Source: Sorangium cellulosum (GTDB lineage Bacteria; Myxococcota_A; Polyangia; Polyangiales; Polyangiaceae). From it: a stretch of 55,874 nucleotides of DNA. Under the pieces are notes generated by a model. That model was not told the DNA's origin. It saw only the letters and a list, made by a program, of their open reading frames with translations, and made no database searches. Below, piece after piece: positions 43,773-46,398 of the stretch. Position numbers and translations under genes: made by a program. Location: assembly GCA_020720045.1 (NCBI GenBank), contig DYPH01000009.1, positions 1 to 55,874 of the forward strand, read 5' to 3'. Positions within the stretch are counted from its first letter, which is position 1. Each line of letters begins with the position of its first letter.

Positions 43773-44504
43773 TCACCGACTCCCGTTCTTCGAACCGACC
43801 TGGTTCTCCTCGAGCCGGCGCTTTGACCAGTGCTCGTCGATGGCTTGCACGAACTCGGCGCGCACCAGCTTGGCACGGGCCTTCAGGAGTCCGTTCGCAT
43901 CGCGCCTCACATACAGTCCTTCGGCGGGCCCGTCGGTCACCGTGGATGGACCAAGGAGCTTCTTCAGCGACTCGACCGAATGCCGCCCCCGTGAGAGTTG
44001 AGGCGTGGTCACGATGTCGAGGGACGCGGCCAGTTCGTCGCGCCGGTCGACGCTCCAGAAGTCGCCGGTCGAGCGGTCGTAGACGTCGAAGGCGAGGAAC
44101 CAGTCGGGGAGGCGCGCATAGCGCACGCTGTGAACGGCGTAGCACCACTCCCCGAACAGCATGAGGTTGGCCCCGAGGGCGTCGGCGAGTGCATGGCGTC
44201 GGGTCGACAGCCATCGCTTGAGTGGCTTCCACTGCCCCTGCGGTGCGTCGAGGTCGAGGTGGCTCCCGCGGTTCTGGGCACGCAGCACGCCGTCGCCGAC
44301 GGAGAAGCCGAGGTTCGCGCCGTCCAGTTTCTCCTCGACGACGACGTCCCCGGCGAGCAAATCGTTCACTTCCTGCGGCGCGAGCACCTTGTCGTCGCGG
44401 GGCCTGCCGGGGCCGAGCCAGACCAAATGCGGCGTGTGGGGGAAGCGGAAAAAGTTCTCGGATCCGGCGTTTCGCCGGGACGAGACAACCCCGTCGGCGG
44501 TCAT
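43773..44504 (-). CDS. RNA ligase family protein (third gene of module 3)
   Basis: 243 residues. The covalent-nucleotidyltransferase motifs are visible: motif I EEKLDGAN with Lys59, QNRG, motif III region LMLFGEWCYAV, motif IV AEGLYVRR and motif V LLKARAKLVR, ending REFVQ-type helix FVQAIDEHW. This is the Rnl2/RNA_ligase family that seals RNA 3'-OH/5'-P ends via AMP. An element B copy (44455-44493) adds a short N-terminal insert (VVSSRRNAGSENF) with no frame change. The start overlaps the PIN-like gene stop (ATGA). Confidence 0.83.
   Translation of the reverse strand: MTADGVVSSRRNAGSENFFRFPHTPHLVWLGPGRPRDDKVLAPQEVNDLLAGDVVVEEKLDGANLGFSVGDGVLRAQNRGSHLDLDAPQGQWKPLKRWLSTRRHALADALGANLMLFGEWCYAVHSVRYARLPDWFLAFDVYDRSTGDFWSVDRRDELAASLDIVTTPQLSRGRHSVESLKKLLGPSTVTDGPAEGLYVRRDANGLLKARAKLVRAEFVQAIDEHWSKRRLEENQVGSKNGSR
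44455..44493. repeat. Element B copy inside the RNA ligase gene (N-terminal)
   Basis: The 39-bp copy begins TTCTCGGATCCGGCG and ends GACAACCCCG. It lies in the first 20 codons of the RNA ligase gene and keeps its frame. Confidence 0.82.
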
Positions 44505-45022
44505 TGCCCCTTCCCCTTTCGCCCCTTCTTCTTGGCGTCGAAGCCCTGGATGTCGTGAGGGCAGAGAAACTCGACTTCCACGCCGTGCTCTCGAAGCGCG
44601 GGCGCCCAGGCCAGCCACTTCGAGTCGGCAGCCTGCGCGATGGGCGGGTGTTCCTCGTGGGCCGCCGCGACCGCAACGAACTTGCGGTCGGGCGGGTCGA
44701 AGCTTTCGAGGCGCGTATCGTCGGGGAATGTCTCGAAGCCACGCTCGGGATGTTCCTCGATTTTTACCTGGTCGCAGCGGCTGGTGTTTGCGTTGTTGCG
44801 GAGCACCCACTTGACGAAGGCGTCGCCGGGGCGGCTACCGATATGGGGCGTCGTCTTGTTTTGGTACTCCCTTAGAATCAGGTAACCGTCGTCGATGGCG
44901 ACGCGTCCCGCAGCCATGATCGCCTGGAGTCGCTGTGCGCACGAGACGACGCAGTCGTCGCTCACATCCAGGTGCTGCCGGTTCGCGACAAGAATCACGT
45001 TGGTATCGACGACAGCGGTCAT
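44501..45022 (-). CDS. PIN-like nuclease (second gene of module 3)
   Basis: 173 residues. It opens MTAVVDTNVILVANR, the PIN-domain first Asp with the following T/S-N. A Glu follows in YLILREYQNK, and DRKFVAVAAAHEEHPPIAQA near residues 113-135 could supply later acids, as in PIN-domain RNases. PIN proteins usually cut RNA, often tRNA or mRNA in toxin-antitoxin modules. The ATG overlaps the ATPase stop (ATGA) and the stop overlaps the RNA ligase start (ATGA). The domain call rests on motifs, so a fold check is needed. Confidence 0.7.
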   Translation of the reverse strand: MTAVVDTNVILVANRQHLDVSDDCVVSCAQRLQAIMAAGRVAIDDGYLILREYQNKTTPHIGSRPGDAFVKWVLRNNANTSRCDQVKIEEHPERGFETFPDDTRLESFDPPDRKFVAVAAAHEEHPPIAQAADSKWLAWAPALREHGVEVEFLCPHDIQGFDAKKKGRKGKGQ

Positions 45023-46398
45023 CGTTTGGCCGCTCGTCGCTTCGCCGCGGCCTCGGTTCGCGCCACAATGTCGCCCATCTCGTCGCCGAAGAAATGGTCG
45101 GGCCAGTTTGTGATGTCCCCAAGTTCGTTGACCTTCAGCTCCTCGAGCTCGGCTCCGTTCTCGGTCGGCCTCGCGAAATAGATGGCGACATCCTCGGGTC
45201 GAAGCGCTTCCTCGGCGATGCGGCGCTGCAGACGATTCAGGAAGTGCTCCGAGTGGGTCTCGAGGATGAGCTGCACGTTCCGCGGACGACCTTTCTCGTA
45301 GGCTTGCACCGCCGAGATGAACGCGTCGGCGAGCTCCGCTTGTACCTGCGGGTGCAGGTGAATCTCGGGCTGCTCCATCCACACAATGGACTCCGGGGGG
45401 CAGTAAAAAGACTGTACCAACGCCGGAAGAACCTGCGACACCCCAAAGCCGACGTCGGGCAGGGCTACCTCGGTAACGCCACCGCGCGTCTTGACGCGGA
45501 CCTCGTAGTCCTTGCGGCCCGGCGCCGTGGCCTCCACGGTGAAGCTATCGATCACACCAAGGTCAACCAGCCACTGAGCGATGAAAGGCATGAACTCCTG
45601 CTGGCGCTTGCCCTTCCCTCGGCTGATCTTTCTGCCAGCAGACTGCGCGGCCAGAAGGCAGGCGATCGCATATTCCCCCCGGGGGCCGACCGTCTCGGGG
45701 GTGTTTCCGCCCCACCCATAGGTGCGGTGCGGATGCTCGCGCAGCGGCCCGAGGTGGCTGAGGACGGAGAGCGTACGCTCGACCTCAACGGCGAAGATGG
45801 CGAGAAAGTCGGCGTTCTGAAACCGTGCCAAGGAGTGGTCCGAGACGCGATAGAATTTCTCGGGCGGATCGAGCGGCCACCCTCGACCCACGGCGCGAAC
45901 CAACTTGTACGGAGGGGTGAGGAGCTTCACCGGCTTCCCACTCTCGTGCTCGACGGTTGCCGAAAGCGTCGGGCTTCCGGCTTCGCGAAGATCGTACTGC
46001 AGTCGTCGCACCACCGGCTGCTCGTTTGCGCCTACCGCGATCACGCTCGTTAACGACAGGCTCTCGCCCCGATACTTCTGGGTTTTGTCGAGGGGGTTCT
46101 GCACCTCGATGTCGTGCGGCGTGGTCCACTCAAGGCTGAACTCGAGCGCCGCCTTCTCGTCGTGGGCGTGCAGCGTCTCGATGAAGGTGCCCAGATCGAT
46201 GAGTGAGCTGTCGTCGCCCGTGTGGAGCGCGCGCTTCCGATCGGCGGAGGCGGCGGTCTGCTTCAGCGCGAGGAGGAGGTGACCGAGGCTGCTCTTTCCC
46301 GCGCTGTTGGCCCCGAAGAGCACGGTCAGCCTCGCGAGGCGCACCTCGCCCGTGTCTTTCCACGCCTTGAAGTTCTTGATGCGAAGTCGCGTGAGCAT
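45019..46398 (-). CDS. DUF3696-type OLD/ABC ATPase (first gene of module 3)
   Basis: 459 residues. Walker A is GANSAGKSS at 29-37, the signature-like region VGFGVSQVLPAL near 325, Walker B IVWMEQPEIHLHPQVQ near 340, and the H-loop LILETHSEHFLNRL near 375. The C-terminal helical part (LKVNELGDITNW) is typical for DUF3696-containing ATPases. It heads the AAA-PIN-RNA ligase operon. It probably senses infection and controls the nuclease. Confidence 0.85.
   Translation of the reverse strand: MLTRLRIKNFKAWKDTGEVRLARLTVLFGANSAGKSSLGHLLLALKQTAASADRKRALHTGDDSSLIDLGTFIETLHAHDEKAALEFSLEWTTPHDIEVQNPLDKTQKYRGESLSLTSVIAVGANEQPVVRRLQYDLREAGSPTLSATVEHESGKPVKLLTPPYKLVRAVGRGWPLDPPEKFYRVSDHSLARFQNADFLAIFAVEVERTLSVLSHLGPLREHPHRTYGWGGNTPETVGPRGEYAIACLLAAQSAGRKISRGKGKRQQEFMPFIAQWLVDLGVIDSFTVEATAPGRKDYEVRVKTRGGVTEVALPDVGFGVSQVLPALVQSFYCPPESIVWMEQPEIHLHPQVQAELADAFISAVQAYEKGRPRNVQLILETHSEHFLNRLQRRIAEEALRPEDVAIYFARPTENGAELEELKVNELGDITNWPDHFFGDEMGDIVARTEAAAKRRAAKR

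Follow-up and report, generated by a model that had tools for sequence, protein, structure and literature searches.

An OLD-type ATPase–PIN pair joined to a minimal RNA ligase in Sorangium cellulosum: a candidate cut-and-reseal defence operon

Why would a bacterium keep a probable RNA-cutting enzyme and an enzyme of the RNA-sealing type side by side in one operon? The question is raised by three minus-strand genes at 46398–43773 in a 55,874-nucleotide stretch of Sorangium cellulosum DNA (contig DYPH01000009.1; hereafter the window), which encode, in this order, an ATPase, a predicted PIN-fold protein and an RNA ligase. Gene 1 (P0001, 45019..46398) specifies an OLD-type ABC/AAA ATPase of 459 amino acids with a C-terminal DUF3696 domain, gene 2 (P0002, 44501..45022) the PIN-fold protein of 173 amino acids, and gene 3 (P0003, 43773..44504) a ligase of the nick-sealing type, 243 amino acids long and made up of a bare nucleotidyltransferase domain. 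As the initial annotation had stated, the genes are joined by ATGA stop–start overlaps, at 45019..45022 between genes 1 and 2 and at 44501..44504 between genes 2 and 3. We tentatively propose, rating the whole chain just short of an even chance, that this is a defence module in which the ATPase activates a PIN ribonuclease and a dedicated ligase reseals the PIN cuts.

Pfam matches and conservation bear out the ATPase and ligase motifs that had been named from inspection of the window. The product of gene 1 matches AAA_15 (E 1.2e-21), AAA_21 (6e-18) and DUF3696 (1.4e-9), and its best model in PADLOC-DB is HEC-03B (6e-119 over residues 1–457), followed by NsnB (2e-54) and PDC-M55A (8e-50); the PARIS AriA models match more weakly than any of these (1.2e-24 and 2.2e-17). 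On sequence evidence it is of the OLD type, a label that rests on its PADLOC relatives. Positions G29, N31, S32, G34, K35, E342-P344-E345, H382 and N431-W432-P433 are conserved to at least 95% in 65 rows (of 68 aligned, the partial rows L034, L081 and L088 having been dropped). Gene 2 matches HEC-03A (6e-24 over residues 1–156) and no other PADLOC model. The two adjoining genes, with their ATGA overlap, between them match both models of the candidate system HEC-03, and because gene 3 matches no model in PADLOC-DB, the ligase is not part of that catalogued candidate.

The PIN assignment of gene 2, for which structure prediction had been suggested as a check, is likewise upheld. Nothing in Pfam, the HARP family included, scores above cut-off with this protein. 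Its AlphaFold2 model (pLDDT 94.9, pTM 0.90) finds VapC21 as the best row in VIA-align (Z 9.5, 124 residues, 3.4 Å), where a best Z of 7–8 is typical for models lacking a clear match. Rows 1–8 are all toxin–antitoxin entries (Z 9.5–8.5, 117–131 residues, 3.2–4.1 Å); row 9 is a Cas9-associated protein (Z 8.4), and the PIN domains of HARP, PRORP and SMG6 come lower. Across 53 aligned PIN proteins, D6, D44, E52, D109 and D112 are invariant, and D133 is conserved to at least 90%. Because the top VIA-align rows agree in identity and the acids are conserved, we regard the predicted structure as that of a PIN-fold protein, probably a ribonuclease; a non-PIN fold is judged unlikely from these matches, despite the lack of a Pfam match and a best Foldseek E of 0.028.

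Gene 3 matches the Pfam family RNA_ligase (PF09414) with 110.8 bits (1e-31) against a cut-off of 27. The motifs EEKLDGAN (with K59), EGLYVRR and KARAKLV are all present, and an alignment of 38 ligases shows no variation at E57, E58, K59, D61, G62, E195, G196 or K212; we take K59 to be the motif I lysine, and E195-G196 and K212 to represent motifs IV and V. A phmmer search of the protein against solved structures gave no match; the gene 3 model (pLDDT 89.9) finds NgrRnl first in Foldseek (1e-8), then an archaeal RNA ligase, TbREL1 and T4 Rnl2. The second domain of T4 Rnl2 and NgrRnl is not present: the ligases at the 80 loci described below are 225–269 amino acids long, compared with 317–319 residues in solved chains of T4 Rnl2 and 335–340 in those of NgrRnl. 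Gene 3 is apparently a minimal, active-looking RNA ligase consisting of the catalytic domain alone, and from this we infer that RNA binding may be supplied by a partner protein or by the RNA itself. It could be argued that gene 2 targets DNA or is no nuclease, the ligase sealing DNA/RNA hybrids, given that PIN activity here is a prediction and that ligases of the RNA ligase superfamily can be promiscuous. We find this quite improbable, as the best structural matches of gene 2 are VapC-type toxins, which are RNases, and both the Pfam family and the best folds of gene 3 are those of RNA ligases.

The co-occurrence of the three genes, whose absence from other genomes would have counted against the initial annotation, proved to recur. 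Of 552 confirmed ligase relatives in a genome scan, the best 80 were examined, and 67 of these 80 loci carry ATPase, PIN and ligase genes on one strand in this order. With gene starts set by a script rule, the ATPase/PIN junction falls within −20 to +25 nucleotides at 61 of the 67 loci and the PIN/ligase junction within −25 to +25 at 65, with exact four-nucleotide overlaps at 32 and 24, respectively. Hosts among these best 80 include Myxococcota, Acidobacteria, Planctomycetota, Verrucomicrobia, Alpha-, Beta- and Gammaproteobacteria, Geobacter and Chlorobiaceae. Annotated plasmids of Aeromonas veronii, Azotobacter chroococcum, Tistrella mobilis and Rhodococcus aetherivorans also carry the trio, the PIN gene being called “hypothetical” in all four, and three viral contigs (L154, L155 and L156) hold it complete, out of 35 viral loci matched by the ligase and one matched by the PIN. 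Most of the 13 loci without the trio fall into three kinds: those whose PIN or ATPase is in pieces, incomplete or could not be found (L040, L049, L058, L064, L097), those where the ligase lies near a contig start (L059, L062, L065), and those where it stands beside other systems (L043, L082, L102). A DNA-level search with the L107 operon gave no match in 5,426 Escherichia coli genomes.

Since these loci had been picked by their ligase, the PIN alignment was also used as the query. PIN-positive genomes are rare, 7 of 266 in a phylum sample and 6 of 369 in a class sample around G282, and a ligase adjoins the PIN gene in 9 of these 13 (five from the phylum and four from the class sample, the window's genome included), although at one of the nine, L123, the ligase is in two pieces. 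In the class sample, 4 of 6 PIN-positive genomes have a ligase compared with 5 of 363 PIN-negative ones (Fisher p 2.4e-6). Together, the 67 loci, the PIN-first samples and the tight junctions lead us to reject chance co-location. No ligase adjoins the PIN gene of the other four, L122, L124, L137 and L138 (in L138 an in-frame stop interrupts the PIN gene), nor do their genomes appear in the lists of ligase matches for either sample. The ATPase–PIN pair can therefore exist without the ligase, and the PIN–ligase link, though strong, is not an obligate one.

The same distribution bears on whether the operon might serve RNA processing rather than defence, with PIN cutting and the ligase joining RNA for maturation, circularisation or splicing. 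HARP is a PIN-type enzyme. Its linkage to Rnl3 provides a precedent for such a nuclease gene being linked to an RNA ligase gene (so far as the available part of PMC12153264 goes). A processing role is nevertheless improbable in our judgement, in view of the patchy spread of the PIN gene in both samples, the plasmid copies, the OLD-type ATPase partner and the defence-island setting of the window, and gene 3 falls outside the Rnl3 family, scoring 11.5 bits with TIGR01209 against a cut-off of 136.9. Identity of the trio with HARP/Rnl3 is rejected on that score and on the missing HARP match of gene 2.

In its history relative to the other two genes, the ligase behaves as a module that moves on its own. 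Across the 67 loci together with the window, pairwise identities correlate with r 0.915 between ATPase and PIN, compared with 0.334 between ATPase and ligase and 0.314 between PIN and ligase, the two latter values being lowered by the choice of loci on ligase similarity. For these matrices overlong N-termini of PIN and ATPase sequences were trimmed, and the partial ATPase rows L034, L081 and L088 were kept. There are two ATPase subtypes, of 43 and 25 rows. On a ligase tree of 111 rows, whose bootstrap had not fully settled (0.981), the ATPase/PIN subtypes interleave, and well-supported branches force at least 16 and at least 11 changes for the two labels; the Variovorax ligases of L054 and L063 are close sisters (98/92), yet stand with different ATPase/PIN subtypes. 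Judged from these comparisons, ATPase and PIN are co-inherited, while the ligase has been swapped repeatedly between the two subtypes.

Ligases of the trio clade (100/99) are also found, once each, beside other systems. At L102 the ligase frame overlaps PD-T4-4 B, itself preceded by PD-T4-4 A (2e-93 and 4.9e-203, respectively). At L082 a PDC-S46 gene (AAA_13, 1.2e-212; 1453–3663) is followed by the ligase (3697–4419) and a gene with a Schlafen/AlbA_2 domain (4462–5649). At L043, of which L005 is a copy, a long DruE-like helicase gene (2860–8802) directly follows the ligase. The ligase-less ATPase–PIN pair of L124 is followed by a gene (2004–3509 as oriented) whose start resembles that of the L043 helicase by eye, suggesting that trio modules plug into a Druantia-like locus. 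When 102 neighbour proteins of 21 loci (of 117 listed, 15 being left out) were scanned, 60 PADLOC families were matched at E 1e-30, for which no enrichment is claimed as there was no control set. Type I restriction–modification, pAgo, PDC-S28 and DruE are among the 25 families listed of these 60; one of the 102 proteins matched DruE, and by its size it is probably L038:6687-12626, which immediately follows a complete trio. A recurrent PD-T4-4 plus ligase type is not supported, L102 being the single case: its PD-T4-4 B as query found two weak matches only, with internal stops, in 331 genomes, and at the single plasmid match (Serratia) an ATPase gene precedes, with no ligase annotated within the examined stretch.

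This mobility is what one would cite for the nearest rival to our proposal, namely that the ligase is a general defence-island accessory, mending RNA that phage or nearby effectors have broken and showing no specificity for the PIN product, while ATPase and PIN work alone. It would account for the single cases beside PD-T4-4, PDC-S46 and the DruE-like gene, for the 4 of 13 PIN-positive genomes without an adjacent ligase, and for the weakness with which ligase divergence follows that of ATPase and PIN, a weakness to which the choice of loci contributes. A general helper would, however, be expected alone or elsewhere more often than is seen: among the 80 loci with the nearest ligases, 67 have it in an ATPase–PIN operon, mostly with tight junctions, and we regard this explanation as unlikely.

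What distinguishes the trio ligases from their relatives is the company they keep. Sister ligases outside the trio clade, 24–44% identical to gene 3 (for example L008 and L024), adjoin a protein with an AAA_33 domain (4 of 4 scanned) and an HD domain (3 of 4), which we read as an HD-type polynucleotide kinase/phosphatase. Such an HD-kinase-like gene lies near 16 of 25 PIN-less ligase loci in the phylum sample and 3 of 5 in the class sample, as opposed to none of the 67 trio loci, a difference with a Fisher p of 6e-12 that does not represent many independent events. For 62 of the 67 trio loci at least 1.5 kb downstream was covered, in a search limited to this one family of end-healing genes. 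The window's genome gave no match to an HD-kinase-like gene either, a weak negative from a search without a positive control. PIN and other two-metal nucleases leave 5′-phosphate and 3′-hydroxyl ends, and because such ends need no healing, the missing HD-kinase partner is what one expects if the trio ligases act on them. For PARIS, AriB has been reported to cut tRNA leaving 3′-OH ends (available part of PMC12409363).

Matches to the ligase occur in two further settings. Thirty-two viral contigs (L157–L188) carry distant relatives of it without the PIN pair, four of these with an HD-kinase-like gene, which fits phage RNA repair. The ligase also has matches in at least 17 plasmid records of Deinococcus; those listed for D. 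radiodurans are 28% identical to it and are annotated as RNA ligase family proteins beside a TIGR02452 family protein.

In the mechanism that we propose, an infection signal would reach the OLD-type ABC ATPase with its DUF3696 domain, which would respond by activating its PIN partner. The PIN protein would then cut RNA of the cell or of the phage, with tRNA or rRNA as the likeliest targets, and translation would stop. The dedicated ligase would rejoin the PIN cuts directly, with no end-healing enzyme needed because the 5′-phosphate/3′-hydroxyl ends left by PIN-type enzymes suit direct joining by this class of ligase; in so doing it would counter stray cutting by uninduced PIN, allow recovery after a transient alarm, or both. 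By analogy, the ATPase–PIN pair is likely an immune effector, because PARIS and WonAB both couple OLD-type ATPases to nucleases. How the ATPase would act is less easily transferred from the initial annotation, which guessed that it senses infection and releases the nuclease. WonAB stops translation, and in this related system the WonA ATPase is needed for the toxicity of the WonB nuclease, simple sequestration having been ruled out (PMC12137116, in the part available).

An alternative use of the ligase would be as part of the attack, joining or adenylylating cut ends (giving mis-joined tRNA halves, circles or AppRNA) and thereby blocking phage repair. As it has the catalytic domain alone and lacks the second one found in T4 Rnl2 and NgrRnl, its specificity may come from elsewhere, and as phages carry related ligases, blocking repair would pay. 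Against this, the sealing motif residues are conserved, and no precedent was found in the literature searched; we consider it very improbable.

In favour of the cut-and-reseal module we count the order of the trio, the PIN-first association, the PIN fold, the conserved residues, the HD-kinase contrast, the mobility of the ligase and the island of ABC ATPases around it, and from these we infer a defence role, an infection trigger, an RNA target and resealing of the PIN product. Several points weigh against it. The structural match of gene 2 stands out only moderately, no Foldseek match falling below E 0.001 (best probability 0.96), and the end chemistry of PIN enzymes is general background rather than a result of this analysis. 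Two loci of the same ligase clade, L074 and L100, have no recognised partner, and the four ligase-free pairs and the narrow scope of the end-healing search have been described above. On the ligase tree, most of the HD-kinase contrast traces back to a single split. An anti-phage function is argued from analogy with related systems, and defence could be blunted if the ligase undoes the work of its own effector, so that control of timing or dose would be needed. The cut-and-reseal logic put forward in the initial annotation therefore stands in part: it fits the missing HD-kinase partner and PIN chemistry, whereas the ligase is separable from the pair. That an immune module should encode an RNA cutter with a matched ligase that reseals precisely the cuts made by it, without any healing of the ends, is in our judgement a real possibility, although clearly short of an even chance.

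The setting of the operon is rich in systems of a similar kind. A HEC-01 pair lies directly downstream on the same strand (41603..43464), consisting of an AAA_21 ATPase (42292–43464; HEC-01A 1.8e-102) and a DUF4276 protein (41603–42355; HEC-01B 1.7e-72). A second HEC-01 pair on the plus strand (47530..49331; 47530–48696, HEC-01A 1.7e-120; 48627–49331, HEC-01B 4e-41) places the trio between the two. Beyond it is a minus-strand Septu-like pair (49498..51395) of PtuA (50382–51395, 2.2e-101) and an HNH protein, PtuB (49498–50124, 5.4e-27), and a further PtuA-like ATPase is found at 35155..36435, also on the minus strand (PADLOC PtuA 9e-126). Five defence-type ABC-ATPase modules (two PtuA-like, two HEC-01 and one HEC-03) are thus contained in about 16 kb, 35155–51395.

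An 89-bp direct repeat (98%; 47373–47461 and 49333–49421) flanks the second HEC-01 pair, its first copy spanning the 3′ end of the open reading frame 46731–47456, and the pair resembles a cassette that entered at the 3′ end of a gene and restored that end. Downstream of the ligase gene lies a 42-bp tandem repeat array of palindromic units (43527–43741), which is rejected as an operon-specific RNA substrate as contig C337 from this genome carries similar units. Upstream of the operon there is a GC-rich 14-bp tandem repeat of 3.8 copies (46513–46565). A long open reading frame at 36802–38652 has a weak PADLOC match to prokaryotic viperin (7.7e-12), and may encode an ordinary radical-SAM protein.

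PrrC is regarded as abortive, and RNA repair is commonly viewed as a phage counter-move. PARIS-like RNA-cutting immune systems are likewise regarded as abortive (available part of PMC12839542). A host operon with both cutter and sealer would make a reversible translation shut-off testable, and if our proposal is true, the response would be reversible and not suicidal. It would also mean that the ligase cassette predicts RNA cutting with 5′-phosphate/3′-hydroxyl ends for the PD-T4-4-, PDC-S46- and DruE-associated loci, so that the ligase would serve as a genetic marker for poorly understood ATPase–nuclease systems acting on RNA. Possibly, it would also furnish a compact, single-domain RNA ligase for laboratory use.

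Among the closest known systems is the PADLOC candidate HEC-03, which has the same ATPase and PIN pair, the ligase being no part of it. HEC-03 is only listed in the paper that names it, so far as the available part of PMC13356809 goes, and no report of anti-phage activity was found for it in the literature searched. The same ATPase–PIN pairing is described for modules of OLD-ABC and PIN endoRNase genes around BREX (PMC12839542, available part), to which the trio adds a ligase, a word absent from the paper's main text. PARIS (AriA/AriB) resembles the trio in combining an OLD-type ATPase sensor with an RNase effector, predicted in our case (PMC12409363, part available). Its effector is a TOPRIM nuclease, however, while the trio has PIN and ligase, and gene 2 matches HEC-03A only. 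WonAB and PD-T4-4, the latter among the systems recovered in a functional anti-phage selection (PMC9519451, in part), are, like the core of the trio, two-gene combinations of ABC ATPase and nuclease (PMC12137116, in part). At L102 the ligase follows PD-T4-4 A and B as third gene. Their nuclease is of the PD-(D/E)xK type where the trio has PIN, and a single PD-T4-4 locus with the ligase was seen.

The HARP RNase P and Rnl3 combination shares with the trio the linkage of a nuclease gene to an RNA ligase gene, but differs in its ligase family and, in the available part of PMC12153264, in that no ATPase is named and the pair is rarely co-linear, whereas the trio ligase belongs to PF09414 and is co-directional with its partners. 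The pairs of HD-kinase-like protein and RNA ligase contain sister ligases, but with the AAA_33/HD gene that was not found near the 67 trios. No report of an ATPase–PIN–ligase trio was found in the literature searched, which covers the key literature on the topic only in part. The novelty suggested in the initial annotation thus needs narrowing, since the ATPase–PIN pair was known, as HEC-03 and, in the available part of PMC12839542, around BREX. ATPase–PIN pairs and the HARP–Rnl3 linkage being already in print, the new part, as far as the searched literature shows, is the ligase as a third gene of HEC-03: the trio consists of a catalogued pair, uncharacterised in the literature seen, together with a gene from outside the catalogue.

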